Notes under the pieces: model-generated | What the model saw: only the letters and a program-made list of their open reading frames with translations | Database searches by the model: none | Told to the model about the DNA's origin: nothing | Translations under genes and position numbers: made by a program | Shown: one piece after another, positions 3,230-51,587 of the stretch | How positions within the stretch are numbered: position 1 is the first letter of the stretch | Layout: every line of letters starts with the position of its first letter | Assembly: GCA_039583875.1 (NCBI GenBank) | Contig: CM077152.1 | Coordinates: forward strand, 15,797,059 to 15,861,058 | Reading direction: 5' to 3' | DNA length: 64,000 nucleotides | From: Platanthera guangdongensis | Taxonomy: Eukaryota; Streptophyta; Magnoliopsida; Asparagales; Orchidaceae

Positions 3230-3785
3230 CATCGCAAGGGATTGCCCCCCTTTCGCAACAAAGCCGCGGACTAGAACCGTGCAAACTAAGCCGTGAGCCT
3301 GACTCGTGCAAATCTGGCAAGGGTTTGTCCCCCTTTCACCACAAAGCCGCGGACTAGAGCCGTGCAAATTAAGCAGCGAGCCTGGCTCGTGCAAACCTTG
3401 CAAGTGTCTGTCCCCCTTTTGTGACAAAGCCGCGGACTAGAGCTGTGCAAACTAAGCCGCGAGCCTGACTCGTGCAAACCTCGCAAGGGTCTGCCCCCCT
3501 TTCGCGACAAAGCCGCGGACTAGAGTCGTGCAAACTAAGTCGCGAGCCTAACTTGTGCAAACCTCGCAAGGGTCTGTCCCCCTTTCATGACAAAGTCGCG
3601 GACTAGAGCCGTGCAAACTATGCCTCGAGCCTGACTCATGCAAACTCCCCGTGGGGGCCTACCCCCCTCACGGCCAAGCCGCGATTACAACCCGCGCAAA
3701 CTAAGCCGCGAGCCCGACTCGTACAAACTCCTCGTGGGGGCATGCCCCCCTCACGGCAAAGCCGCGATTACAACCCGCGCAAACT
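3230..3785 (+). repeat. Tandem array, about seven units of ~82 bp
   Basis: Units begin near 3234, 3317, 3399, 3482, 3566, 3648 and 3730. Each carries a run of C followed by AAGCCGCG and GTGCAAACTAAG. The last two units are more diverged and contain GATTACAACC. This is the 3' untranslated tandem repeat region of the Tat-1 element. Confidence 0.85.
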
Positions 3786-4035
3786 AAGCCGCGGGCTAAA
3801 ACCGTGCAAACTAAGCCACGGCCTGGAACCGTGCAAACTAAGCCGCGGCCTGGAACCATGCAAACTAAGCCGCGGGCTAGAACCGTGCAAACTAAGTTGC
3901 AGGCTAGATCCGTGCAAACTAAGTCGCGGGCGAGATCCATGCAAACTAAGCCGCGGACTGGAACCGTGCAAGCTAAGCCGCGGGCTAGAACCATGCAAAC
4001 TAAGCCGCGGGATGAAACTGTGCAAACAAAGTTGC
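3785..4035 (+). repeat. Tandem array, nine or ten units of ~27 bp
   Basis: Consecutive units share AAGCCGCGGGCTAGAACCG then TGCAAACT. The unit is a sub-segment of the preceding ~82-bp repeat, so the long unit seems to contain the short one and to have been amplified secondarily. Open frames through this array on both strands are repeat artefacts. Confidence 0.85.
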
Positions 4036-4266
4036 GAACTCAGTTCACGTAAAATACTTTGTCCACACTCTCCTGCAAGTCAAACTCGCAAAAACAGTTC
4101 TCAAAGGAGAAAAAGGGAAAAAACGAAACAGCTAAGTGACATAAAAATAACGATGTCATACAGATCTGCGCACAAGAGCGCCCACTACAACTGCTAAGCA
4201 AAAAAAACACACGACACAAACAGCTGAAGGAAGAGTACAAAAACGTACAAATACAGAAACGTGAGG

Positions 4267-20000: not shown

Positions 20001-23000
20001 TCGCCGTCCAGCATTGGCGCCCGTATCTCTTGGGTCGGCCGTTCGTAGTCCGGACAGACCATCATAGTCTCCGCTACCTCCTCCAGCAGAAAATTGCCAC
20101 ACCCGCACAACAACTGTGGGTCGCCAAACTTCTGGGTTACGACTTCTCGATTGAGTTCCGCTCCGGCAAGACTAATCGGGCGGTCGACGCTCTCTCCCGC
20201 CACCCGCACGCACCGGAGCTCGTGGCCCTTACTCGGCCAGTGTGGGAAGAGGGCGTGGCTATCCAGGAAGGAGTCGAACGGGATCCCATGCTTGGCCCCA
20301 TTCGTACAACTCTCATCGCCGACCCGGCCACACAGCCGCCATACTCGCTCATCGGTGGACGATTGTTCTACCGCGGCCAGCCTCGTTCTCTCCTCCAGTT
20401 CCCGGTTGTATTCCACCGACACAACGTNNNNNNNNNNNNNNNNNNNNNNNNNNNNNNNNNNNNNNNNNNNNNNNNNNNNNNNNNNNNNNNNNNNNNNNNN
20501 NNNNNNNNNNNNNNNNNNNNNNNNNNNNNNNNNNNNNNNNNNNNNNNNNNNNNNNNNNNNNNNNNNNNNNNNNNNNNNNNNNNNNNNNNNNNNNNNNNNN
20601 NNNNNNNNNNNNNNNNNNNNNNNNNNNNNNNNNNNNNNNNNNNNNNNNNNNNNNNNNNNNNNNNNNNNNNNNNNNNNNNNNNNNNNNNNNNNNNNNNNNN
20701 NNNNNNNNNNNNNNNNNNNNNNNNNNNNNNNNNNNNNNNNNNNNNNNNNNNNNNNNNNNNNNNNNNNNNNNNNNNNNNNNNNNNNNNNNNNNNNNNNNNN
20801 NNNNNNNNNNNNNNNNNNNNNNNNNNNNNNNNNNNNNNNNNNNNNNNNNNNNNNNNNNNNNNNNNNNNNNNNNNNNNNNNNNNNNNNNNNNNNNNNNNNN
20901 NNNNNNNNNNNNNNNNNNNNNNNNNNNAAGGAGGTAGACCAGTCCCGCTCAACGATCGCCAGCCGCCGCTCCATCGTCTCGTGATCCTCCTCCACCGCTG
21001 CGGAGTTAGCCCGTTGCTGCTGCGCTGAGATTCGACAGGACTCCAGCAATCCTCTGCCTCCGCGCCTTGCCGCTTCCGAAGGCCCGAGTAAGTCCTCCAT
21101 CTCGCCGGCGGAGGGGAGGGGCGAGTCTTCCCCTTCTTCTTCTTCTTCATCTTTGTCTCCTTCCCCTTCCGCTTCTTGCTCCTTCGGCTCTGGAGGACGG
21201 ATTTTGGTCAGAATAGGAGAGGAGCGAAAGAAAAGCTGGGAGATTCTCGCATACCTGAGGAGCGATGGATACCCTCCCCCGATGGTTGGCGAGAAGGGTC
21301 GGGCTGGCCCTCTTAACCCTTTCTGAAAAGCAGATGAAGCGGCTTGCCCCGGCCCAGACGAAATGTCCTACGCTCCGGGGTCTCGGTCTCTCCCAGGGGG
21401 GAACAGAGATGCCCTCTCTCGCCGGAAGCTGTGATCCCGGCGCGGGAGCGGATGTCTTAGAGATAACCCCTCCGGCAGGGATGGCGAGATCGGGCGCCGG
21501 ATCGGCGCGATCGGTCGGGGAATTGGGCGTGGCAGCCCCCGTGATTGGCGATGCAGCCCCCGAAGCGGACGATGGACCCTCATTGTGAAGGCGGGTGGCC
21601 TCTGTGTCCGCCGGTAGAAAGTCGACGACATCTCTTGGTACCGTCCCCTGCAAGAAGAGTGGTACTTCAATACGCAACCACGTTCAAGCTTTTTAACATT
21701 TCGCGCTAACAGGAAGGGAGAAAGGCGAGAGGGGTACCTCCGGCAGAGAAGAAGGGATCTCATCGCGGTTGGGAGTGGGGGTGAGTGAGGCCCGGTTCTC
21801 CTTAGACAGGTCTCGCCTGACTGACTTGACCTTCTTCTTCTTCTTCTTTGGGCAGGAGCTCTCGCCGGCTGGCTTCTCGTCGGTTGGCTTCTCGCCGGCT
21901 GGCTTCTCGCCGGCGGATTTCTCCCCTACTACCTTCTCGTCAGCGGGCCTCTTGCCCAACAGCCAAGGAGCAACCTTGGCGCAATTGGCGCGAGCCCGCG
22001 CCTGGGCCGCAGCGAGGCGGGCCTGGAGCTCTTCCGAGAGCGGCTTCTCAATGTTTTTGGCACGCATTTTCATGGCGCGGCAGAGGCTCAAGCAGGGAGT
22101 AATTACGACAGAGATGGCCTGAGAGACAAACTCAACTGTGTATTTATAGGACAAAGGTGGGGTCTGCAGAAAGATTCTCTGCCAGGTCAGCATGTACTCA
22201 TCGAATATTTGGGGTTGGACGTGTCTTTCCGAGCGCAAGAGTAGCTCGCAAAGAGCGGAGATTGTGTACAACCTCATATTCACTGGGTAGGACCAAGATC
22301 CTCCAAGGATCAGGATTGGGCTAGATTTGGACTTATAATTGGATCAAGCAAGAAAGCGTGCGGGAGGGCTCTCGCCGAATGCCAGTTCGTCAAGCTCAGT
22401 TTGTCGAGCTGGAAGCGTAATTTGTCGAACGCCAGTTCGTCGAGCTCAACTCGTCGAACTGGGCTTTCGACTTAAGGTCATGTTCGTCGAACACAGATTT
22501 TAGGCTCAGGCCATGACGGAACCAGGGCGGGCGGGAAGGCTCCCGCCCTGGGCAGGTGCAGGGGCTCGCGCCTTGGGATGGCGGAGGTTTATCGGCCTTT
22601 GACATTGAGTGATGTTTCTCCACTCAACGCTCCCGCCAGCCCTTGGCGTTGAGTGATGCTTCTCCACTCGATGCTCTCACCAGCCTTTGGCGTTGAGTGA
22701 TGCTTCTTCGCTCGACGCTCTCGCCGGCCTTTGGCGTTGAATGTTGCTTCTCCACTCAACGCTCCCGCCAGCACTTGTCGTTGAGTGATGCTTCTCCACT
22801 CAACGCTCTCCCTCAACCCAGACCTGAAATTACCTAAATACCCTTGGTCTGCATCTAGCTCCTCAGAACAGCGGAGTTTGGCTATTGGCAAACTATCCCA
22901 GGGGCATTTTAGTAATTTTAGGGCAGCAAAAATATGTTTTTTGCAGACCAGATTTTGAAAATCTATAAATAGACCCACAGGATACCTCAGAAGGCAGATT

Positions 23001-26000
23001 TCCTTATACTCTCATTTTGTCTCCTAGAGCTTTCTGAGGTACTCCTAGCCCAGCAATTGGCTTTGGAGGGGAATCACTCAGAGAACTTCCTGGTTAGTGG
23101 AGGGACCTCTCAGCTGATGTTTAGGGTCAGTTTCCAGTTCTTTGTGGCTAGTCTTGTGTCGAGGTTTGGGAGAAGTAGGTGTCGGCCACACCCCAAGGTC
23201 CGAACTCTCGTCGAGACCAGTTTTTGGCTTCAACAAGAATGACCTGCAATCTTAGTATCATGGGCTTCAAATATTAATGTGTCGAATGAGTGATTCTGGT
23301 ATAAACCGTTTTTGCTTATAATACAGGCGTTGGCCGATTTTAGACCAATCTGCAACCTCAAGAGGTTTATCATTCAGTAGTTGTAGAATTTCTAATGCCT
23401 TGGGGTCCTTAGAATATAAGTTTTCTAAATCGTCAAAAAGATTCGAATAGGTAAAAAAATATTTTGTAAACTGCTTAGATGTCCTTCCTTAGATTGCTCG
23501 TGAATCCTGGAAAGAGCATCCGCAGCATTATTATCCTTACCCGGTTTATACTTTATAGTGTAGTTAGATCCCAAAAAAGTTTTGATAAAAATCGTTGTTG
23601 TTCGGGCATTGTAAGAGTTTGTGTGGTTAATGTGTGTAAAGTCTCATAGTCTGTCAAGATTGTGAACAACGTCCTAATTAAGTACTGCCGCCACTTGCTG
23701 ACAGTCGTAGTGACTGCAAGCATTTCCCGAAAGTACATTGATTTAGCATGTTCTTTAGGTGTTAATTTCTTACTACAAACGCTATTGGATGGGCATTCTG
23801 AGGTAATACAGCCCCAATGCCTACTCTCGACGTATCACACTCGATCGTGAAGGATTGAGAAAAATCTGGAAGGGACAATACGGGTGGTGAAACTAATAAA
23901 CTTAAGGTGATTGAAAGTATTATTACAAAGTGGTGTCCAAATGAAATGATCCTTGGCAAGCAAATCAGTCAATGGTGTTGTAATGGTGGCGTATTGCTTG
24001 ATAAAACGTCGGTAATACCCTGTTAGCCCAAGAAATGCCCTAAGTTGTCTAACGTTTCTGGGCTCCGTCCATTGCTGAATGGCCTCTATCTTACTTGGCA
24101 TTGGGCCCACTCCTGAGACTGAGATAACATGTCCCAGGAACTCGATAGACTTAGTATTAAAGACGCATTTAGACGATTTCAACGCCAAATGATTTGAACT
24201 TAATACTGCAAATACTTGTTGTAGGTGATCTATGTGGAGTTCTTCGGATTTACTGTATAGTAGTAAGTCGTCAAAAAAATGACAACGAATTTTCGTATGA
24301 AAGGGCTAAATATAGTATTCATTAAGGCTTGAAACGTGGCTGTAGCGTTAGTAAGCCCAAATGGCTTCACTAAAAACTCGTACAACCCTAGATGGGTTCA
24401 GAATGCAGTTTTATGCACGTCGCCTCATCCTAATTTCGTGGTGCCCTGAATGTAAATCTAATTTAGAAAATAAGTTGCACCATGTAATTCATCGAGAAAC
24501 AAGTCAATCGTGGGCATGAGAAAACTGTCTTTTACTGTGATTGAATTTTACGCACGATAATCTACACAAAACCTCTAGCTTCCATCTTTATTTTTGATTA
24601 AAATGATGGGTGAACTAAATGATGAATGATTGGGCTGAATTATTCCGGCATCCAGCATTTCTGATATTAGTCTTTTGATTTCATTTTTATGAAAATAGGG
24701 GTATCTATAGGGCTTAACTTTTGCAGTAGCAGAGTTATCAATTAAGGGTATTTGATGGTCTAATGACCTTTGTGGGGGAAAACCATTAGGAATTTTAAAA
24801 ATGGCAGCATATTGATCATGCAATTGTTGTACTGGAGCAATTGTTGTATTGGAGCAATTGTTTGTGGAAGCTGTCCATTCTGTATTTGTAAGTCCGGAGT
24901 TGCTTTGGTATGAAAACAAAGTAACATGGCATCAATTGAGTGTTGGGCCAAAAGTTTATCGAGTTGGGAGAGAGAAACATGATCCGAATTAAGGGAAGTG
25001 GCACATTGAATATGTCTCGGAATGTCATGATAAACAAAAAATAATGAAAAAGTTTTATAATTTGTAGTGACATCTCCTAAAGTTTCTAACCAATGGAATC
25101 CTAAGATGATATCGGCCCCATGTAAATCTATTAGGAATAAATCTAAAGTGAAAAGGATATCCTGTATGGTTAGGGAGGCGTTACTACACTTTTCATGACA
25201 AACCATGACATTCCCGTTTCCAACAAAAATTTTAAATTGTAAAATTGCCATCCTAGGGAGATTATTATATATAGCAGAACGTCTAGTCATAAAATTGTGG
25301 GAACTTTCATTGTCGATAAAAATGTTCACTGGTGTCTGACCTATGATACCTGTTCGCGTAATGACTTCGAAGAGTATGTGCCCATAAGTGCGTCACAACT
25401 AATTTCTGAATTGACATTAGTTTCAGGGTTCACATCACAATATTCATTTTATAATGTGTCTGCGTGCTAAAAAAATATATTGTTGGGCGATTCTTACATT
25501 TGTGGACTTGCACATACTTTTCATCACACGTGAAACATAAGCCCCGCTCCATTCTTTGTTGAATTTTTGTTGGTGTTAGATGTTTAAAAGGCTTGGGACT
25601 TTTATTATTTAAAGTATTCGGGACACTATTTTGCCATGGTTTACGAATCCTATTGTCTTCCGGATACTGATCCTCGAAAATGCGAGCTAGTTTATATGTA
25701 GCAAATAATGTAGGGGGATTATGAGTAATAATAGCCCTTTTGGTATGTGGTTTAAGTCCGGAGATAATTTTTTTTTTGTAATTATCTTGGGAAAGATCAT
25801 CAAATTGGCAAGATAAATCTTCAAATTTTTTTTGATATATAGCAACATTATAAGTTTGAACGAGTTTGGTAAACTTACCGAAGGGGTCTTTGATACGGGC
25901 TAGGCACCCCCCCTATTATCCTGGGCATGGGGACCCAGCGGGGGACCCACCCGCAAAGTTATCAGGGCCGCGACCCGCGCACTCCAACCCATCTTATTGA

Positions 26001-29000
26001 CCAGTTTAATCGGGATGTTGTCACCGCGATTTGAAAACGGGCCTTGATGAGGCTTCAACCACAGCCCTCACCGCGGGCCCCGATCAGTTGGTGAAGGGCT
26101 GTGTTGAAAGCCCTTATCATTGACCGGGTTCAATACGGGATGTTGTCACCGCGATTGAACCCGGGACCTAAGAGGCTTTCAACACAGCCCTCATCACCAA
26201 CTGAGTCGCGGCTCAGTTGGTGATGAGGGCTGTGTTGAAAGCCTCTTATCAAGGTCCCGGGTTCAAATCGCGGTGACAACATCCCGTATTGATTAAACTG
26301 GTCAATAAGATGGGTTGGAGTGCGCGGGTCGCGGCCCTGATAACGTTGCGGGTGGGTCCCCCGCTGGGTCCCCATGCCCAGGATAATAGGGGGGGTGCCT
26401 AGCCCGTATCAGTCTTCATATTCTGTGGGTCCAAATCTATCATAAATAGCCTCTTTGAATGTGCTCCAATCTTGGCATTGGTCGTCCCGCATTAAGCCTT
26501 GGAACCATCTTGCGGCTGGGTGATCTAAATGCATAGATGCGATAAAAGGAAAATTCATTGGTTTTATATTGTTATACCTGAAATACATTTTCGTCTTGTA
26601 TAGCCAATCGGTAGGATCACCTGACGAAAATTTGGGGCATAGCAACTTGACGGGAGCTTGACCATAACCATCTGGTCCAACGTCAGCGAATTCTTATTTT
26701 GATATTGGCGGCATAAGGAATTCCGAATTCTGCAAAGAATTTGCACTTGTGGCAGGAAAGGCTTGGGTTGACTGTTGCACTTGCGGTTGATGGGTAAGCG
26801 CATCTAGAAGGCTGGGAGATGATGTGCTGGCGTCTCCGATATCTATAACTTGGACCCATGATCTGGAATGGCCTTCAATTCCACCCAATGATGCATTGAG
26901 GGTGTGTGAAGGAAGGGATTTTGGAGTCTGTCGGCTCTTTTCAAGCGGTTCATCGCTTTGCTGATCCTATAGCCGTAAACCGAATGGCCCTTGTCCCGGC
27001 ACCGTTATCTTGTGCATAAAATCCCGCAATTCAGGACAGAATTTCTTAAATTCTTGATAAAATTGTTGATGTGATGCCTGCAGATGATCATGTTGTTGTT
27101 GAGATGTTGCCAGGTTCGCCTGCAGCTGTGTGATATCGTCCGCGAACTGATATTTAGTAGCATGTATTGAATCTGAAAACACAGTTTGCTGATCAAGATA
27201 AATGCGATCTCGTTGATCCAAACCTTGCCAAGTGACCGTTTTAAAAGATGGTGGCACGTCCATAAAGTGCAAATCAACGAGATCACCAAGTTGTTACGAA
27301 ATCCAGCGAGTTTACCGGCAGGGAAACGGCATGGAGCCGGAGGGGGGAGAGACAGAACGGATTATGGGGGGAGAGACAGAAAAGTTAGGATAGAAAACAG
27401 ATTTTATTTATCAATAATTCAAATTACAAATTACATAGTTATTTATAGTGATTGGACCAACGGCCAAAAGAAAATCAATATTGCAATGCTCACAAGGCAC
27501 AGGAAAACGCTTCATTGTAACCGGATATCTCCTCATGTATCCTTTTATGTAGCCTTCTATGTAGCCAGCTAATTGTGATCCTGATGGTACAGCTGGCTAC
27601 AGTGTCATGCACTACTTAATAACCTTATTTTGTGTTACTATGCTATCAATGCTACTAAATTCTGTCAAGGCATATGTTCTGAATTTTTTATGCATTTTCT
27701 GGGGCATATAAGTATATTTTCCAATATATTGTTATGACCTGTCTAGGAGAAGAAGAGGAAGTAGGAAGAAGACTAGAGGATTAGGGTTTAGGAGAGGAAG
27801 AAGAGAAAGGATACCTGGAATAATCTTCTTGTCCCACCAAGGAGGAGGGGTTGGGTATTTATGCTCCCACCCAACCCCTAGGGCCGGTCGGCCCCATTGG
27901 GGTTGAACCCATGTGGTTCAGCCCCTATTCTGCTTTATTGTTGGATTCGGGCTGAACCGGATGGTTCAGCCCGGTTTTCATTCTCCATCTCCTTCGGCCT
28001 TCGCGCGTATTTAAATCCACGGAAACGTAGATCGTCCGGGGGCATAACATTCCCCTCCCCATCAAGAAGCACCATGTCCTCAAGGTGAAAATCAGGATCG
28101 CGCTCCCGGAACTCCAAGAGGTCAACTCACGAATTGTGCGTCTCTGGCATCTGCTTCCATTTGACGAGGATCGTTGGCCGGTACTCAGTGCCATGTTTTT
28201 TCCACTTGGTCATGAGAACGTCTTCAGGTAAGGGCCTCAATTCGCCGCTGCTGGTGGCATCGGGTAAGATAGGAGTGACGAAAACAGCGTTCCTCAGCTT
28301 CTTTTTGAGTACTGATACATGAAAAGTAGGGTGAATGCGGGACCCCTCCGGAAGCGCCAAAGTATAGGCTACGGGTCCTACCCGCCGAATGATCCTGTAC
28401 GGCCCGTAGTAGCGTGGGGCCAGTTTTTGATTGGCCCGACGGGCGACTGATAGCTGACGATATGGCTGGAGCTTAAGAAACACCTCATCGCCTCCCGCAA
28501 ATTCCCTTTCCGTACGGTGCTTGTCAGCTTGGACCTTCATGCGGTCTTGGGCCGCACGTAAATTGTCGCGGAGAATAGCCAAGGTCCGATCCCGATCTCG
28601 GAGAGCCCGATCTACCGCCGGGAGGGCACTGCCGGCCGGTTCATAGGAGCACAATGTGGGTGGCGGACGCCCATACACCGCCTCGAACGAAATGAGCCTG
28701 CTGGCCGTGTGATAGGAGATGTTGTAGCAATACTCGGCCCAATGTAGCCACCTGGTCCACGTGCGGGGTTCATCCATGACAAAGCGCCGTAAGTATGTCT
28801 CTACCCCTCTGTTTAGCACCTCTGTCTGCCCGTCGGTCTGGGGGTGGTTGGTCGTGCTCATGCGTAGTGTGGTACCCTGAAGCCGAAAAAGCTCCGTCCA
28901 AAAATGGCTGACAAAAACTGGGTCCCTATCAGAGATGATGGACCGAGGAACCTCGTAGAGTCGAACTATCTCTTTGGCGAAGAGTTCAGCCACTGTTTCC

Positions 29001-32000
29001 CCGGAATATGAGTGGCTCAAAGCAAGGAAGTGGCTGTACTTGGACAGTTTATCGACCACTACTAGAATGACCGACTTGCCCTGTGATTTGGGAAGGCCCT
29101 CGATGAAGTCCATGGAGACGGTGTCCCAAATCTGGTGTGGGATCTCTAACGGAGTAAGAAGACCCGCTGGGGAGATCGTCTCATACTTTTGCCGCTGGCA
29201 GACATCGCATTCCCTCACGAACTGCTGAACGTCCCGCTGCATCCCCTTCCAAAAGACGTTGGCCTTGACCTGCTGTAAGGTTCGATGGATGCCGGCATGA
29301 CCACCGGTCGGTGAAGCGTGAAACTCCCAAATCATAGTAGTACGCCAAGGGGACGTGGCCGGTAGAACGAGCCGACCCTGGTAGTAGAGCTGCGTGCCAA
29401 GTAAGTGATAGCCATCCTCTGTGCCTCGGCCCTGCTGCAGTGCTTCAACAATGACGCGGAGAACTGGGTCCTGGAGAACCTCCGCCTGTATGTCGTCTAA
29501 GGAGGCAATCACCGGCCCAGAGATGTGAGTAAGGGAGCTTTCTGGTATCCGAGACAACGCATCGGCCGCCATATTCTCCTTCCCATTCTTGTAGACAATC
29601 TCATAATCATACCCCAGAAGCTTCGTCAGCCACTTCTGCTGCAGCGGGGATGCCAACCGTTGCTCAAGGAAATGCTTCAAACTCTGGTGGTCTGTACAAA
29701 CCTGGAAATGTCGCCCCAGAAGATAGGGCCGCCATAAAGCGACCGTGTGAAGGATGGCGAGCATCTCCTTCTCGTACGTAGAGAGCCCCAAGGTCCTGGG
29801 GGCGAGAGCTTTGCTGAAATAAACAAGTGGCCGACCCTCCTGCATGAGGACCGTGCCGATGCCGACGCCAGATGCGTCAGTCTCCACCACAAAGTCCTTG
29901 AAGAAATTCGGAAGTGCTAGCACTGGGGTGGTAGTCATGGCCCTTTTGAGGCCATCGAATGCTTCATCGGCCTCCGCATGCCATCGGAAGGAATCCTTCT
30001 GCAGCAACTGGGTGAGTGGCCGTGCTATTTTCTCGTAGTCCTTCACGAACCGGCGATAGTAGCCGGTCAGCCCAAGAAAGCCTCGTAAGGCCGGATCGTC
30101 GTGGGCTGCGGCCAAGTTACCATGCTTTCAATCTTCCTCGGGTCTGCCCGTACCCCTTGAGTGGAGACCAAATGTCCCAAGTATACGACCTCCGCCTGCC
30201 CAAAAGAGCATTTGGATCGCTTGGCATACAGCTGGTGCTCCCGCAAAATGTGAAATACATGTCGAACGTGCTCCCGATGCTCATCCCAACTCCTGCTATA
30301 GATCAAACTATCATCAAAGAAAACTAGCACGTACCGACGAAGCAGTGGTCGAAAAATCTCGTTCATGACGGCTTGGAAGGTAGATGGGGCGTTGGTAAAT
30401 CCTAACGGCATCACCAGAAACTCATAGTGACCGTCGTGAGTACGGAACGCCGTCTTGTGGATGTCCTCGTCCCACATGCGTATCTGATGGTAGCCGGATC
30501 GGAGATCCAGCTTGGTGAAGAGGCTTGCCCCATGCAGCTCGTTTAGCAGCTCCTCGATCATCGGAATGGAAAACTTTTCTTTGATGGTCGAGTGATTCAG
30601 TCCACTGTAATCGACACAAAACCGCCAGGATCCATCCTTCTTCTTGACCAAGATGATCGGAGAGGAGAACGCGCTGTTGCTGGGTCGGATGATGTCGGCG
30701 GCCATCATCTCACGTACGCTGCGTTCTATCTCCGTCTTCTGAATGTGGGGGTACCGGTATGGACGATATTCGTCGGGTCTGCTCCGGCCTTCAGCTGAAT
30801 CTGATGATCTCTGAACCGTGCGGGTGGTAAAGAACGTGGTGCCTGGAAGATGTCATCAAACTGGACCAATAAATCCTGCAGTTGCTCTGGTGCTGACGTT
30901 GACCCAAGAGCCTCTATCCCCCACACCCGGGCCATCATACTACCCTCTTCCTCCATCTTTTGCAGGCTCGTGAGGGATATCTCCTTGAGCGGAGACGACT
31001 GTATCCCCTGTAGGCAATGCTCTGTCCCCCGGTGCGAGAACTCCAACGTCATCTTCTCCCAATCAGTGGTTACCCGCTTAAGCTGGCGGAGCCACTGCAC
31101 GCCCAACACCATGCCCGACCCCCGAATCGGTAGCAGGTAGACATCCGTCCGGCACACATATCCCTGTAGTCGCAGCTCCACCCCTTTCAGGACCCATTTG
31201 CACCTCAACTTGTTGTCGTCAGCCACCATAACCTGGAAAGAAGCCCCCTTGTCGACTGCATGTCCCGCCTTCTGTGCTGCTGCGGGGGTGATAAAATTAT
31301 GGGTACTCCCGCTATCTATCAAAATAGTCACTCGCTCATGCCCCAACTTCCCAGCAATCCGTAACGTAAGAGGGGTTGAACACCCTTCCATGGCCTGGAT
31401 GGACACCCCAAACTCCGCAAGGTCCAAACCATCCACCTCATCACAGGTAATGAGCTCCTCCTCATCATCCTCCTCCCTCAATATGAATACTTGCACCTTT
31501 TGGCACCGGTGTCCCGGTGTGTACTTTTCGTCGCAGTTGAAGCATAGCCCTTTGTCCTTCCTGGCCTGCAGCTCAGGCCACGTCAGGCGTGTCACTGTCG
31601 GCCGTCCTGCCTGCGGCTGCTCACGCCGCCCTGCTACTGGTGTTGCTGGTGCTGCGGGAGCGCGTGCTCCCCCTCGATTTCGCTGGCGGTTGAACCGCTC
31701 CTCCTGTATCCTGGCTAGACTGATGGCGTGGCTCAGACTGTTCGGCATGTAGGCATGGACCTCATCTCTCAGGTGATCCTTCAGCCCTGAAACGAAACAA
31801 CTGAGGAGGGTCTTTTCCCCCCCCAATTGACCCGATTTGCCAGCCGCTCGAACTTTGTGCGATATTCCGTCACTGTCCCCTTCTGTCGAAGTTTCTGCAA
31901 GGTGGCCTCCACGTCCTCGTATTCCAAGGGCCCGAAGCGGGCCGTAAATCCCTCTACAAAGTGCGCCCACGGCGTGTACCCATAGCTTCGAACGAACCAT

Positions 32001-34856
32001 TGTGCCCACTGGTATGCGTCGCCCTCCAAGTGAAACGACGCCAACTGCACTCATTGCTCATTAGGGATCTCTTGGTATGTGAAGAACAACTCGGCCTTTT
32101 GTACCCATTCCAGCGCGTCACTACCCCGGAATGTCGGAAAATTCATCCGCGTTCGTTTTGGTTGCATAACGGCCCGCTGGTTCGCTCCTCCATTCCTGCC
32201 ATACCCTGGATCTAGCCCTGCTGGCCTGATTGGTTCCGCCACTAGATTCGGCCGACCATAGTAGTCTTGATAATGTTCCCCGCCGTATCCCCCTCCCATA
32301 GGAGGGCCCTCCTCGCCATCAAAAACGTGTCTGGGAGGATATCCCTGCCATTGTTCGCCTTGCCCCATCCTCGCCGGAGCCCCTAGTGCCGGCGGCCTGG
32401 GGAGGATCCCATTTCCAGCGCCATTTGGACCCCCCATGTGCGGCGGCGGCCTCCAACTCTGCTCCTGATGTCCAAAAGGGCGGCCGGCAGCCACCCCGGC
32501 GACTCCACCGCCGGCGGCCACCCCTCCCGGGCCGGTCCACCCCCCGGCGACCTGCTGGTGGGGGTTTGGTCCCAGTCCGATCCACGGTCTGGCGGCAGGG
32601 ACGCCCGCACCTGGGCTCCGCGGAAATTGCGCCGTCGGCCCTGTAGGGCTCGGCTGCGCCGACGGGTCACTGTGGCCGGCCGGCCAGCCTGATTCCGGGT
32701 TGGGGCCGCTGTAGGGCATCATTCCCGAACCTCCTGTGGTGCCTCCGGTGGGTGATGGTGCCGCATGTGACGATTCCCCCTGTTCCGCCGTTTTCCCCCT
32801 TAGGGTTTGCGTTAACTGCGCCTTCAGCTCATCCATGCGTCCTTCCATGCGTTCTTCCAGATTTTTCGTGGAGGTTTTGACTTGTTCTTCGATCCCGGAC
32901 ACTGAATCCGCCAAGGCGACGTAGTTTTCTTCGATGGTGGCTAAGCGTGTCATTTCCGCCTCCGTGTGTGTCACCATTGTCGCAGGAACGATGCTTTGAT
33001 ACCAAATGTTATGACCTGTCTAGGAGATGAAGAGGAAGTAGGAAGAAGGCTAGAGGATTAGGGTTTAGGAGAGGAAGAAGACAAAGGATATCTGGAATAA
33101 TCTTCTTGTCCCACCAAGGAGGAGGGGTTGGGTATTTATGCTCCCACCCAACCCCTAGGGCCGGCCGGCCCCATTGGGGCTGAAACCATGTGGTTCAGCC
33201 CTCATTCTGCTTTATTGTTGGGTTCGGGCTGAGCCGGATGGTTCAGCCCGGTTTTCATTCTCCATCTCTTCGGCCTTCACGCGTATTTAAATCCACGGAA
33301 ACGTAGATCGTCCGGGGGCATAACATATATCAACATGCATCTATTGCTCTTGAGGCTTATTTGGTGGCTTGAAGTTCGAAAACATGGTTATAAAACCGAG
33401 TTTGCTCGGCTTCTTCATTTGTTTGAGTTTCCATTAATTTTTCACGTTGAAATGAAATCCCAATTTTTGAGAAATTTTGTAAAAGTTTGTTCTGTTTGAA
33501 TTCAATGTTATTGTCACACTAAGTCTAACCAAATAACAAATTCAACCTCTTACATATAGCTTATTTTCAAATTCCAAGCAACCAAATGAGGCATGATTTA
33601 TAGTTTTGTTGCATGTCATCCGGTTTTCCTCCGGTCTAGGGAATCAGACCGCCTTAACTTAGAGTCGGATCGGGCGCGCAAACAGTCAATGAAAATCTAG
33701 CAGCAATGACAAGAGGCTTTTTTTATCTTGGAAAATCTGGAAAGGAGGATGAAAAATCACGTGGCCGAATCGGTGTCGGGACAAAATTCATTATTTATCT
33801 TTGAGTTTACAAGTATTGGGAGTTTCCTCGGATGGTGATAGGCTACCGCTCTGTTACAAGCTCTGAGTACAGAAAAATCAGAAAATAAACTAAATTCACG
33901 TAGCTTGCATGAGTGTGTCTACGAGAGTGTTCCTATGCAGGAGCTACGAGCGTTTTCCAATGCCTTTTCTTGAGCTCACCGAAACGTCCAAGTGAGCGTC
34001 GGGGATTGTGCAAGATAGAGAGAGGGCGGACGAATTCCAAGCAGAGAAACAATCTAAGTCTCACGTTCTCTCCGGAAAACCTCAGAGTTCTCTCCAATCT
34101 CTGGAGTTGCTTGTCTTCAAATGAAGGTATGGGGGCCTTTTTATATTTTACTAGAGAACGTGCTGGTAATTGCGTCGGACTGGATCCTGAGTTGGTGAAT
34201 GACGTCGCTCCGTTTCGGTCACCTGGATCACCAATTTTTGTAAAATGACAAAGATGCCCCCCGGACGGCACGGACAAGTTGCCCGACGGCGGCCGCCGGT
34301 GCGCCCGCGCTCAAGGGCCGCGCGCTGCGCTCGTGCCCTCGTGCGGTGCATGTGCTCACGCGTTGCGGAGGCGCGGGCACGTTCCGCGAGAGCGGGGGTT
34401 GGTGGTGTGTGTGGGGAGGGGGGCGTGGGTTGCGCGTGCGCGTTGGGGCCGGTCGCGCTTGTGTGTGTTTCTTGCACGATTGTTTGGCTTCCTTGGCTTG
34501 GTTTGCGAAAACTCAGGGGGAATCCATCAAGTTTGAAATTATTATGCATCATAAACTTGGGCACATTCTCTTAAAATGATGTTCTGGTGATTAAATTACA
34601 AACCTGTTCTTCATTCGTGCAGGTTTACGTTATTCATTTCAAATGCAACAAGAAGCTCATACGTGAATATCCAAATCTGTTCAATTACACCAAAGACATG
34701 TACCAAATCCCTGGCATAAGTAGCACCGTTAACATGGAACACATAAAGAAGAGCTACTACGGAAGCCATCCTACTCTGGATCCATACGGAGTTATTCCAG
34801 TTGGATCCAACACAGATTATTCTGCTCCTCATGATAGAGAAAGGTTCAGCAAGTAG
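9801..34856 (+). CDS. Glutathionyl-hydroquinone reductase, Xi-class GST (copy 1, five exons)
   Basis: Exons 9801-10013, 10116-10292, 10406-10630, 10717-10845 and 34623-34856 join in phase 0 at every GT-AG junction to give 325 residues, the usual family length. The family reduces glutathionyl-hydroquinones to hydroquinones using a single catalytic Cys in a thioredoxin fold. Visible here: active-site motif CPFACR with Cys49 (family consensus CPWAxR, so Trp to Phe is unusual), YTVPVLWDK with cis-Pro130, the glutathione-contacting ESSEIIRM (144-151), and the helical C-terminal domain from about 155, with ICGN and [17 protein letters not shown]. The start ATG matches the N terminus of copy 2. Intron 4 is about 23.8 kb, includes a 500-N gap and holds several retrotransposons. 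The frame is intact, but correct splicing across such an intron is unproven. A neighbouring paralogue lies at 38692-40376. Confidence 0.85.
10018..10057 (+). repeat. (CT)n microsatellite in GHR copy 1 intron 1
   Basis: About 20 uninterrupted CT dinucleotides immediately after the splice donor of intron 1. Confidence 0.95.
10975..11007. repeat. Poly-G run, 33 bases
   Basis: The longest homopolymer in the window, about 130 bases into intron 4 of GHR copy 1. Just before it, 10910-10970 is a small inverted repeat (TTTACATTGTTAA facing TTAACAATGTAAA). Confidence 0.95.
11008..12415. other. Intron 4 DNA of GHR copy 1, mostly unremarkable
   Basis: AT-rich, without coding signal. A perfect 20-base palindrome (CCCTCTATAT and its mirror) lies at 11523-11542, and 11090-11400 is GC-richer and may be an old repeat. 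Confidence 0.5.
12416..12885 (+). repeat. Candidate solo LTR
   Basis: Begins TGTTAATG and ends AATAACA, giving the inverted TGTTA/TAACA ends usual for LTRs. It contains a TATA-like CTTATATAAGGAG, followed by a CT-rich R/U5-like stretch. No matching 5-bp target duplication was found (TGAGA versus TATTT), so the borders remain uncertain. Confidence 0.45.
12981..13298 (-). repeat. 3' LTR of Gy-A
   Basis: 318 bp, the partner of 27292-27601. The left flank is target duplication GTGTC. A polypurine tract is next to it on the inside (minus-strand GGGAAGGGCTGGGA). Confidence 0.9.
14043..14714 (-). pseudogene. Gy-A integrase C terminus and chromodomain
   Basis: The frame contains the [19 protein letters not shown] block of Gypsy integrase C termini (GPY/F module), then [11 protein letters not shown]. 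After a linker comes a chromodomain ([22 protein letters not shown]). The chromodomain places the element among plant chromoviruses and would direct integration to particular chromatin. Residues after about 14100 have no domain. The integrase core between here and 15117 is frameshifted. Confidence 0.75.
15117..16701 (-). pseudogene. Gy-A RT C terminus, RNase H and integrase zinc finger (left copy)
   Basis: From right to left: RT thumb/connection with [20 protein letters not shown] and [16 protein letters not shown] (16106-16399), an RNase H start with [16 protein letters not shown] (15874-16071), its end with [19 protein letters not shown], then an H-H-C-C integrase zinc finger ending [10 protein letters not shown] (15117-15806). 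Frameshifts separate the blocks. The segment ends exactly where Gy-E inserted at 16702. Confidence 0.8.
16702..17085 (+). repeat. 5' LTR of Gy-E
   Basis: 384 bp with TGTTACCG...CGGTAACA ends, a TATA-like CATTATATAAGAGG near 16920 and a (CT)n stretch at 17010-17033. The tRNA used for priming is unclear: the adjacent TTTGGTCCGACC only partly resembles an initiator-Met site. Confidence 0.8.
17138..18180 (+). pseudogene. Gy-E gag, one frameshift
   Basis: Opens at the ATG of MSVSTRNS. A capsid segment ([19 protein letters not shown] and later [18 protein letters not shown]) precedes a frameshift near 17900. In the shifted frame follows the zinc finger [15 protein letters not shown], a CX2CX7HX2C variant shared with Gy-A and Gy-C. 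In-frame continuation into protease indicates a single gag-pol reading frame before decay. Confidence 0.75.
18180..20427 (+). pseudogene. Gy-E protease, reverse transcriptase and RNase H
   Basis: Protease active site [11 protein letters not shown] is intact, followed by [19 protein letters not shown] begins [18 protein letters not shown] and continues [20 protein letters not shown] frameshift near 19160 moves to [19 protein letters not shown]; a second near 19425 falls on the catalytic motif, where the expected F-F-D-D reads F-Y-D. RNase H ([31 protein letters not shown]) is open. Integrase is lost in the N gap. The element cannot be autonomous as sequenced. Confidence 0.85.
20428..20927. other. 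Assembly gap, exactly 500 N
   Basis: A run of exactly 500 N is the conventional placeholder for a scaffold join of unknown size. The left edge is in Gy-E RNase H/integrase linker and the right edge in the antisense ORF of Gy-X, so at least parts of both elements are missing. Confidence 0.97.
20928..22283 (-). pseudogene. Antisense extra ORF of Gy-X (spliced, 3' end in gap)
   Basis: The first exon (22283 to about 21737) begins [20 protein letters not shown], continues with a helical block ([19 protein letters not shown]) and an Ala/Lys-rich region with GEKPAGEKP repeats and a KKKKKK basic patch. Consistent introns: GAG|GTACCC...TTGCAG|GGGACG (about 21736-21660) and CAG|GTATGCG...CAGAG|CCG near 21253-21190. 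The last exon is acidic then coiled-coil-like until the gap. It resembles, in layout, the aORF of Tat-1: helical start, low-complexity middle, charged coiled coil. I do not know its function. Confidence 0.45.
22610..22815 (+). repeat. Minisatellite in the Gy-X LTR, ~43-bp units
   Basis: Four to five copies of GTTGAGTGATGCTTCTCCAC followed by TCAACGCTC-C-GCCAGC. Spacing is about 43 bp. The open frame on the minus strand over it is a repeat artefact. Confidence 0.8.
22963..22974 (+). promoter_or_regulatory. TATA box of the Gy-X LTR
   Basis: CTATAAATAGAC, with a T/C-rich leader downstream, about 270 bases before the LTR end. Confidence 0.5.
23236..24590 (-). pseudogene. Gy-A RT C terminus and RNase H (right copy)
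   Basis: A second version of the segment at 15348-16701, about 4% diverged, with the same blocks ([36 protein letters not shown]) and its own small indels. It starts with the Gy-X target AGAAT and, unlike the left copy, runs on through the Gy-E insertion point into the rest of RT. Confidence 0.85.
24575..25329 (-). pseudogene. Gy-A protease and RT N terminus
   Basis: The protease frame starts [12 protein letters not shown], so the catalytic D-S-G has become D-N-E, a loss of the active-site triad. It continues [17 protein letters not shown]. The RT start reads [19 protein letters not shown] and [12 protein letters not shown]. Two frames overlap because of an internal shift and a short duplication near 24830-24860 (GGAGCAATTGTT repeated). 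Confidence 0.8.
25480..27272 (-). pseudogene. Gy-A gag, interrupted by PAL-1
   Basis: From right to left: a coiled-coil-like N terminus (26967-27272), the capsid block (26409-26645: [39 protein letters not shown]) and, beyond PAL-1, the continuation and a zinc finger [16 protein letters not shown] near 25530. The capsid reading frame continues exactly across PAL-1 once the element and one 5-bp target copy are ignored, so PAL-1 inserted cleanly. Confidence 0.75.
25891..26411. mobile_element. PAL-1: palindromic tRNA-like element with 5-bp TSD
   Basis: 521 bp with ends TGATACGGGC...GCCCGTATCA and target duplication GTCTT on each side (25886-25890, 26412-26416). The outer ~120-bp arms match with a single mismatch. 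The middle holds four tRNA-like modules in alternating orientation. The clearest, at 26205-26275, has an A-box-like CGGCTCAGTTGG (26209-26220) and a B-box-like GGTTCAAATC (26260-26269), 51 bases apart, with CTCTTATCAAGGTC between, as in tRNA-Lys-like genes. TG...CA ends and a 5-bp target duplication suggest insertion by a retroviral-type integrase. Confidence 0.75.
27292..27601 (-). repeat. 5' LTR of Gy-A
   Basis: 310 bp, bordered outside by target duplication GTGTC (27602-27606). The inside neighbour in minus orientation is ACTTGGTGATCTCG, which does not match an initiator-Met primer site well. Confidence 0.9.
27730..28049 (-). repeat. 3' LTR of Gy-C
   Basis: 320 bp. The adjacent inside sequence on the minus strand is GATGGGGAGGGGA, a polypurine tract. 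Confidence 0.92.
28050..30115 (-). pseudogene. Gy-C RNase H, integrase and chromodomain
   Basis: A long open block (662 codons, 30115-28127) holds the end of RT ([18 protein letters not shown]), RNase H ([37 protein letters not shown]), an H-H-C-C integrase zinc finger ending CDVCQRQK, and an integrase core with the D-D-E residues visible ([26 protein letters not shown]). Then come [14 protein letters not shown] and a chromodomain-like [14 protein letters not shown], where an in-frame stop falls; the chromodomain continues after it ([16 protein letters not shown]). The catalytic residues are intact, so decay is limited. Confidence 0.9.
30067..30800 (-). pseudogene. Gy-C reverse transcriptase
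   Basis: Contains [39 protein letters not shown] and the catalytic FFDD motif (followed by S rather than the usual I). Frameshifts near 30115 and 30720 detach it from RNase H and protease. Confidence 0.85.
30726..32977 (-). pseudogene. Gy-C gag and protease
   Basis: Starts [20 protein letters not shown] with a coiled coil, then a long Gly/Pro-rich linker, then the capsid ([20 protein letters not shown]). A TGA stop interrupts at about 32050, and a frameshift follows near 31800. The zinc finger is [16 protein letters not shown] (CX2CX7HX2C). The protease active site [12 protein letters not shown] is intact, followed by [17 protein letters not shown]. One stop and two frameshifts disable the otherwise complete polyprotein. 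Confidence 0.85.
32989..33006 (-). promoter_or_regulatory. Gy-C primer-binding site
   Basis: On the minus strand TTTGGTATCAAAGCATCG follows the 5' LTR directly. It matches the initiator tRNA-Met complement (TGGTATCAGAGC) with one difference. Confidence 0.85.
33007..33325 (-). repeat. 5' LTR of Gy-C
   Basis: 319 bp partner of 27730-28049, bordered by target duplication TATAT. Confidence 0.92.
33600..34560. repeat. LTR-like/GC-rich repeat remnant near GHR exon 5
   Basis: Shares scattered phrases with 8150-9180 (ACCG.CTTA...CGCGCAA.CAGT; GATAGGC..CCGCTC; a promoter-like AT stretch then a GC-rich block). It ends about 60 bases before the exon 5 acceptor. Long open frames in 34245-34574 are in GC-rich low-complexity sequence with no domain. 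33326-33599 is plain AT-rich intron. Confidence 0.35.
34623..34856 (+). CDS. Terminal exon of GHR copy 1
   Basis: After the acceptor TTCGTGCAG the exon opens [12 protein letters not shown] and continues with [35 protein letters not shown] and SAPHDRERF, the conserved C-terminal helices and tail of plant GHRs. It has the same 234-base length and phase as the last exons of copies 2 and 3. Assignment to copy 1 rests on order, strand, phase and the fact that exons 1-4 lack only this part. Confidence 0.85.
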   Translation, partial: VYVIHFKCNKKLIREYPNLFNYTKDMYQIPGISSTVNMEHIKKSYYGSHPTLDPYGVIPVGSNTDYSAPHDRERFSK

Positions 34857-47094: not shown

Positions 47095-47369
47095 GTGACA
47101 ACGTTACAGGGCTGCAGCCCAATACACCCCAAGCTCTCCCGCCTTTTTCGCAAGGCGCGTTGTTGGCGCTAGGTATCAACCCGAACCCTTGAAACACTCT
47201 CTTCCAACAGCTCATCACAAACTGAGCTGCAGCTCAGTTGGTGATGAGCTCTGTTGGAAGAGAGTGTTATCAAGGGTTGCGGGTTCGATACCTAGCGCCA
47301 ACAACGCGCCTTGCTGAAAACAGGCGGGAGAGGCGTTGGGGTGTATTGGGCTGCATGTAACGTTGTCAC
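47095..47369. repeat. PAL-2: tRNA-like palindrome
   Basis: Arms GTGACAACGTTACA...facing...GTAACGTTGTCAC, ~135 bp each with mismatches, centred on TGAGCTGCAGCTCA. The forward module has A-box-like CAGCTCAGTTGG (47230-47241) and a perfect B-box match GGTTCGATACC (47282-47292), 52 bases apart. A further partial copy, CTAGGTATCGAACCCGCAA, lies at 47441-47459. No target duplication found. Confidence 0.7.
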
Positions 47370-47479
47370 GGCAAGCATATCTGAGTCCTAACATAAAAGT
47401 GCCCCACCCGTGACATTACAGGAGCCAATTCTTGTGGCGCTAGGTATCGAACCCGCAACCCTTGATAACCTTCTAACAG

Positions 47480-49985: not shown

Positions 49986-50470
49986 GAGGTCTATTGTGGG
50001 TGCACTACAGGTAAGCAAAATCAGTGACCCCAACCCATCTCCACAGATCTGATTGGCCGCAACCGCTAATTCCAATGGCATATTGTTGCACTTTTTATGT
50101 AACGGCCCGGTCTACTATGGGTGTGTTATAGAACTACAAACTAGTGACTTTAACCCATCTCCACGGATCTGATAGGCCGCAGCCACTAATTTCAATGGCG
50201 GGTTGTTGAGGCAAGAGCTTGAACCTAAGAACACCTGGATAAGGGAGCTCTAAACTGGCCTTCATCACCAACTTGGAGCTTGAACCCCAGACCTCCTAGA
50301 TCTGATGAGGACTAGTTTAGGGCTCCCTTATCTAGGAGGTTTGGGGTTCAAGCCCCAGCCTCGACAATCCGCCATTGGAATTAGGGTTGTGGCAAATCAT
50401 ATTCATGTAGATGGGTCGGGGTCATTGGTCTGCAGTCCTGTAGCACACCTACAGTAGACCGGGCATTACA
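49985..50470. repeat. PAL-4: palindromic tRNA-like repeat plus a partial arm
   Basis: 50098-50470 begins TGTAACGGCCCGGTCTAC and ends GTAGACCGGGCATTACA. The arms of ~150 bp match imperfectly (GTGGGT..TAC..AACCCATCTCCAC; TTCAATGGCGGGTTGTTGAGG). The centre carries a perfect B-box match GGTTCAAGCCC (50345-50355) and its inverted partner; the A-box is degenerate. The stretch 49985-50085 is an extra copy of the left arm. No target duplication found (TTTTA versus TGACC). Confidence 0.65.
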
Positions 50471-51147: not shown

Positions 51148-51587
51148 TGATGCGGGGACAGGAGTCCACCTTTGGCATCACCACAAGCCCACCTGGAGTC
51201 AGCACCAGTTTATCTACAGCACGGCATCAGCACAGGTTGTTGATCTCGATCTCGCACCCCCTAGATAAGAGGCCCTCAAGCAACCTCTCATAACCAACTG
51301 ATCCGCGGATCAGTTGGTTATGAGAGGTTGCTTGCCCTCAAGCAACCTTCATAACAACTGAGCCGCGGATCAGTTGATGAGAGCTCCTGAAAGCTCTTAT
51401 CATCAGGATCGAGACCTGGCCTCATACCGTGCGCCTGTGGTTGGGCCCAGAGATGGGTTGGGTGTATGCTCGCGGGCCTGATGGGACGCCATGGTGTGAC
51501 GCCTTGGTGGGCCCGGCAGTGGGCCGCCAGTCTGGCTAAGGTGCGAGGCTGGTCGACAGAGCGGGTCGGCTCTGGGTCACTGCATCA
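51148..51587. mobile_element. PAL-3: TG...CA element with tRNA-like inverted modules, 5-bp TSD
   Basis: 440 bp from TGATGCGGGGAC to GTCACTGCATCA, with target duplication GATAT (51143-51147, 51588-51592). The ends share only short inverted TGATGC, as in LTRs. Inside, two perfect palindromic centres (CTGATCCGCGGATCAG and a second GCGGATCAGTTG) flank tRNA-like modules. The right-hand one has A-box-like CGGATCAGTTGA (51366-51377) and B-box-like GGATCGAGACC (51406-51416). The right half is GC-rich unique sequence. Confidence 0.7.

Follow-up and report, generated by a model that had tools for sequence, protein, structure and literature searches.

The element described here occupies positions 25891..26411 of a 64,000-nucleotide stretch of contig CM077152.1 of the orchid Platanthera guangdongensis (assembly GCA_039583875.1, positions 15,797,059 to 15,861,058 of the forward strand), hereafter the window. 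It is 521 bp long, runs from TGATACGGG to CCCGTATCA, and is flanked by two copies of a 5-bp target site duplication, GTCTT (25886..25890 and 26412..26416). The left arm (25891..26011, minus strand) is an inverted copy of the right arm (26291..26411, plus strand); each is 121 nt long, with one mismatch between them (99% complementary), and the predicted RNA fold of the element lies 40 standard deviations below those of 100 shuffled sequences. The insertion interrupts a gag reading frame on the minus strand, which, with the two flanks read separately, ends in ..FGPTEYED before the element and resumes as DPFGKFTKL.. after it, the D being the duplicated codon. The near-perfect arms, TG..CA ends, exact duplication and continuing gag frame listed in a preliminary description of this DNA are all borne out.

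The interior carries motifs that we label A and B boxes by the consensus of tRNA-type promoters. A core palindrome with two 40-nt arms (26169..26248) is centred between 26208 and 26209. On its plus-strand side, an A box, GGCTCAGTTGG (26210..26220), is followed by a B box, GGTTCAAATC (26260..26269), the two starts being 50 nt apart; on the minus strand lie the A box of the opposing head, CCAACTGAGTC (26197..26207), and a B-box-like motif, GATTGAACC (26153..26161). A first, degraded core retains an A-box-like GATCAGTTGG (26082..26091) and the B-box-like GGTTCAATAC of the first head (26127..26136), both on the plus strand, and within this head the sequence flips strand at a shared TCAA (26130-26133). 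The four tRNA-like modules proposed earlier correspond to two inverted head pairs, one of which is degraded. The extra length of the window copy is due to this strand flip inside the element, with TCAA shared at the junction. The copy is a rearranged, atypical member of an interspersed family whose other members are palindromes of about 400 bp or arrays of them.

The basic copy of the family is a near-perfect palindrome of approximately 402-412 bp, in which two half-units are mirrored about a core that is typically CTGANCCGCGGNTCAG. The A box begins beside the palindrome centre and, in most half-units, a B-box-like motif follows 51-56 nt further on. In larger copies, which are arrays, palindromes centred on a core take turns with palindromes centred on a linker. 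The linker that joins the units is itself a palindrome, constant in sequence and 16 bp long, TAAAAGTGCACTTTTA. With its flanking CA/TG, the linker has 636 exact sites in the genome, and a 34-nt core pattern has 547; the reversed control of each has none. Searching the 4.25-Gb genome gave 792 candidates, of which 40 were scored, and 39 further loci from the scored list were fetched with about 1 kb of flank each. The linker pattern added 15 loci, a non-random sample consisting of the first ones on contig C1, three of which duplicate earlier loci (L076 and L077 are L062; L078 is L055). With the window copy included, the sample comprises 52 distinct loci. The alternation is seen in L063, where centres follow one another at 774 (core), 988 (linker), 1201 (core), 1414, 1840 and 2185 (all linker) and 2525 (core), certain cores having been altered or lost.

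Even between families whose arms differ strongly (TGTTACGGG, TGATACGACCC and TGATGCGGGG ends), the core is kept, and so are the linker, a mid-block and a region with the B box. Half-units were gathered by the A-box motif plus the linker, which is why these two are conserved in the half-unit alignment; the palindrome centre, B box and mid-block played no part in the collection. Among the 44 half-units found, 42 were of suitable length and fell into eight clusters at 85%, whose representatives share core, mid-block and end. Box motifs occur in all eight representatives, and a B-box-like motif in 37 of the 44 half-units. The mid-block common to the eight, GGTTGGGGTGTAYGG..CCGCGG..CCTG, lies approximately 105-150 nt from the A box and is possibly a packaging or recognition signal. 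No reading frame was seen in the half-units, although reading frames were not specifically looked for. The linker sequence was found in no viral contig, and a search for its text in the open-access literature gave no paper.

Canonical TG..CA ends together with an exact direct flank repeat are present at 32 of the 52 loci. The repeat is 5 bp long in 31 of these; the single 7-bp case, TATATAT, lies within an AT repeat (L040). The shortest flank repeat accepted was 4 bp in some locus comparisons and 5 bp in others. Several repeats were left out of the count: ATATA at L048; those at non-canonical ends at L037 (ATAGA), L071 (GCCCA), L070 (TAAA), L053, L060, L061 and L064; and a 12-bp repeat, GGCCCGCGGGCC, which lies inside the arrays L068, L069 and L081. 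The signs of LINE (long interspersed nuclear element)-type insertion, namely duplications of variable length and an A/T-rich or simple-repeat tail, were not encountered at the loci read. These data show insertion of the integrase type, as the preliminary description had supposed when it suggested that the element may be LTR-like (long terminal repeat-like) and integrase-mobilised. They contradict an ordinary tRNA-derived SINE (short interspersed nuclear element), mobilised by a LINE and dimerised head to head by chance, which is barely credible: a half-unit of about 220 nt with A and B boxes would suit it, but the exact 5-bp duplications, the TG..CA at both ends, the chimeras with gypsy elements described below and the lack of an A- or T-rich tail beside the duplication do not. 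Nor do 5-bp duplications fit the superfamilies of plant miniature inverted-repeat transposable elements (MITEs) that the preliminary description names, which duplicate 2, 3, 8 or 9 bp.

Whole arrays of up to 2,320 bp (L038) are likewise found inside one duplication, those of L063 (2,162 bp) and L059 (1,574 bp) among them. This bears on whether the arrays and identical arms arose after insertion, by chromosomal recombination or palindrome correction. Array structure does vary, and the arms of genomic palindromes can be homogenised. Nevertheless, arrays of 2-5 units lie within a single 5-bp duplication with TG..CA at their outer ends, and the same linker stands between units of different families (which were partly collected by that linker), so that we regard a post-insertion origin as very unlikely.

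The window also contains a Ty3/gypsy element (27730..33326, minus strand) of the lineage that co-integrates with the palindrome family elsewhere. It shares 92.6% identity over 5608 aligned positions with the gypsy element of L083, part of it carries integrase, RNase H and SH3_Tf2-1 domains, and reading frames of Ty3/gypsy and copia type abound in the window as a whole. A gypsy match was found at nine of the 52 loci (L033, L034, L036, L044, L045, L051, L058, L060 and L075). In the composite L045+L083, the palindrome is followed by part of the linker, TAAAAGTGCA, a single A, and then a complete 5.6-kb gypsy element; CGTAC stands on both sides of the composite, whereas the gypsy element alone has no duplication. 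Three more composites share one duplication each: TGTCG in L034+L084, CATGA in L058+L086 and ACGAC in L051+L087. For these three, which were read at their ends and in part in the middle, the 5 bp before the far LTR had been predicted in advance from the flank of the element, and were found in all three cases. Because both partners lie inside a single shared 5-bp duplication, element and gypsy DNA must have been joined before integration. In every proven composite, one terminus comes from gypsy and the other from the element, and the element end therefore works as an integrase end. The four co-insertions point to a Ty3/gypsy integrase. Consistent with this, the element ends TGTTACG, TGATACG and TGTTAGGG were each found at the end of a gypsy LTR that was read; beyond the ends, element and gypsy share only matches of 11-12 nt (E of 0.07 or more).

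The joins lie at several positions. Measured from the core centre, the element starts at approximately -6 nt in L034, -1 nt in L033 and +2 nt in L060 and L075, as expected from run-off complementary DNA (cDNA) ends or from an opened hairpin tip; elsewhere the join lies about 17 nt in (L058), near the B box (L051) or at the linker (L045). In L075 and L060, of which this join only was read, a gypsy LTR end plus TT meets the core at GG(A/C)TCAG. An LTR end followed by TT is the end expected when unprocessed. L044, first read as a chimera, is ambiguous because of a GACGC flank repeat and was not counted. L036 has a duplication of its own and is no chimera, though a gypsy LTR lies nearby. The junction pattern CATTN{0,2}GGMTCAGTTGGTGATG has 12 sites in the genome and none in the control, and four of the sites were read. 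Two are the LTR joins of L075 and L060; L088, read upstream, looks like a switch from element to element and not an LTR; and in L049 (near 1480) the sequence joined to the core tip has no match to gypsy and is possibly another captured RNA. With four of the 12 sites read, the pattern was not counted as gypsy evidence.

Long inverted repeats, and half-units in which no reading frame was noticed (none was looked for), would also suit a foldback or MITE-type DNA element whose transposase makes 5-bp duplications, the gypsy joins being accidental. Against this stand the four joins with one 5-bp duplication across both partners, the element end in place of an LTR end, and the three end types that match gypsy LTR ends. 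We consider such an element highly improbable.

A rival of another kind is a terminal-repeat retrotransposon in miniature (TRIM) resembling Helenus (TRIMp3). Its LTR would be the 400-bp palindrome with its tRNA-type promoter, copies of about 402 bp would be solo LTRs, and arrays would be read as LTR-linker-LTR with an internal region of 16 bp. In its favour are the TG..CA ends, the 5-bp duplications, copies made of two units and a single linker, and L055, an array that repeats directly and exactly. So does the precedent: as described in the main text of the Helenus paper, Helenus elements are TRIMs with a tRNA-like LTR, a primer binding site (PBS) and a polypurine tract (PPT), and make 5-bp duplications in fungi and plants, the sole plant family being from Selaginella (Kojima, 2024; PMC10886601). 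The linker tells against this rival, being a constant 16 bp with no polypurine tract and, because it has no TGG, no PBS for a tRNA 3' end; nothing else separates linker-joined units. The repeats that could be direct LTRs are identical in L055, but the unit types within L038, L062, L067 and L068 differ by 6-16%, whereas LTR pairs start out identical. Moreover, gypsy junctions occur at the core, at the linker and inside the half-unit. The two-LTR version with PBS and PPT that the preliminary description had proposed to look for was not present in the loci read, the repeated structure being palindrome plus 16-bp linker. A TRIM is, in our judgement, unlikely.

We think it probable, instead, that the family, which is non-coding and SINE-like, is parasitic on a Ty3/gypsy element and uses the particle, reverse transcriptase and integrase of that element to spread, with a half-unit RNA made by RNA polymerase III and priming by hairpins as the steps we infer. 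RNA polymerase III would transcribe the half-unit of about 220 nt outward from the core, using its A and B boxes, and would terminate at the linker's TTTT. The first strand would then be primed by the AAAAGTGCACTTTT hairpin, and the second by a snap-back at CCGCGG. The resulting palindromic DNA would be trimmed at its TG..CA ends, which resemble gypsy LTR ends, and inserted, while molecules sharing a particle would be combined, by strand switching or end joining, into the arrays and gypsy chimeras.

Several observations agree with this proposal. The position of a tRNA-type promoter fixes the 5' end of its transcript, and a run of T the 3' end. The palindrome centres lie where such a promoter would put the 5' end and where TTTT would put the 3' end. 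One half-unit, when folded, forms a 9-bp hairpin at its 5' end. In four of the 19 arrays compared (L038, L062, L067 and L068), identity between the arms that meet at a core is 0.99-1.00 for eight units and 0.98 for the ninth, and arms of other unit types in the same array differ by 6-16%, which fits snap-back copying at the core. TTTT occurs before the linker in none of the 44 half-units, 13.5% being expected. This lends weak support and may be compositional, since A4 runs are scarce too and the sequences are related. Of the internal promoter in inverted dimers proposed earlier, the motifs and their arrangement stand, and those motifs suggest its use by RNA polymerase III.

Other observations weigh against this proposal. 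At sixteen of the 52 loci no duplication is clear and no chimera is proven (L033, L037, L044, L048, L049, L053, L054, L060, L061, L064, L070-L073, L075 and L079). The far end predicted for L033 is absent from the fetched stretch L085, which instead matches a copia-like part of the window, and ends of the TGATGCG type have no match among the gypsy LTRs read. In L055 (1001-1978), an asymmetric unit of 481 bp, whose arms belong to two different families, is repeated directly and without change. Its core-mates are 0.79-0.82 and its same-side arms 1.00 identical, for which LTR-like or circle copying accounts better than copying by hairpins. Core-mates are only 0.84 identical in unit 1 of L036, other pairs are closer than core-mates in L059 and L069, L063 and L065 are mixed, and the remaining arrays of the 19 are non-discriminating or have no simple core. 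Just three A4 runs occur in the 44 half-units, which are related sequences, where 28% of half-units were expected to have one. Transcription by RNA polymerase III is suggested by motifs, and neither Rfam (the window stretch and six loci) nor ARAGORN (the window) reports a tRNA. Rfam matches to microRNA precursors, below gathering scores, were set aside as hairpin look-alikes. Hairpin self-priming is favoured as the putative maker of the palindromes, end joining or circle copying being possible.

Three diverged relatives lie elsewhere in the window. The first (51148..51587) has TGATGCGGGG-type ends, TGATGCGGGGAC..GTCACTGCATCA, and the duplication GATAT. The second (50098..50470) runs from TGTAACGG to CATTACA, with no duplication found; a linker half, GCACTTTTTA, stands just outside its left TG end (from 50087). 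The third (47105-47400) retains the core CAAACTGAGCTGCAGCTCAGTTGG, and near 47388 stands CTAACATAAAAGTGC, the remnant of a linker. Two tandem arrays with periods of 83 bp and 27 bp are located at 3232-4089, and a run of N spans about 20349-20937.

The palindrome family is filed here as a variant among polymerase III-type elements mobilised by LTR retrotransposons. TRNA-derived SINEs have A and B boxes and a length like that of the half-unit; here, no LINE-type tail or variable duplications were seen, and the ends are TG..CA with 5-bp duplications. With parvovirus-type rolling-hairpin replication the palindrome family shares palindromic ends that could self-prime, and with retrozymes a short, non-coding make-up and a probable reliance on LTR machinery. 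It differs from these two in that it has no coding capacity and that Rfam reports no ribozyme family in the stretches searched (the window stretch and six loci). Helenus, according to the main text of its description, is similar in being short and non-coding with a tRNA-like polymerase III promoter, in its 5-bp duplications in plants and fungi, and in a proposed mobilisation by LTR retrotransposons with which its LTRs are not shared, and differs in its two direct LTRs, tRNA PBS and PPT (PMC10886601). In the palindrome family, by contrast, the unit is a palindrome, as is the 16-bp linker, and there is direct co-integration with gypsy; because no PBS or PPT was seen, it is not filed as a Helenus member. 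The stems palindrom, inverted, hairpin and self-prim do not occur in the main text of that paper (PMC10886601). Cassandra, in the published text available, forms tandem arrays of LTR, internal domain and LTR in direct units with the PBS TGGTATCAGAGC; it likewise combines a polymerase III promoter, an LTR-retrotransposon-type element and tandem arrays, but its promoter is of the 5S type and its units are direct, not alternating inverted repeats (PMC7215508). No title or beginning of an abstract listed in searches of the open-access (PMC) literature, outside which most subscription papers and Repbase fall, describes a palindromic, PBS-less element joined to gypsy.

The usual view is that SINEs depend on LINEs and that hitchhikers of LTR retrotransposons require LTRs, a primer site and a polypurine tract. 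The palindrome family appears to do without all of these, yet to use a gypsy integrase. Its co-insertions name its partner directly, in contrast to Cassandra, for which the Helenus paper states that nothing indicates the autonomous family responsible (PMC10886601). The palindrome family also preserves natural traces of how strands switch and ends join within retrotransposon particles. That it represents a class of self-primed, rolling-hairpin retroelements housed in a Ty3/gypsy particle, with a polymerase III RNA bearing hairpins at both ends, array centres that correspond to the 5' and 3' ends of that RNA, and termini that mimic LTR ends and are inserted by gypsy integrase, is a tentative proposal, plausible but short of probable. 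If it is true, hairpins at the two ends of a polymerase III transcript would replace the LTR, the tRNA primer site and the polypurine tract.

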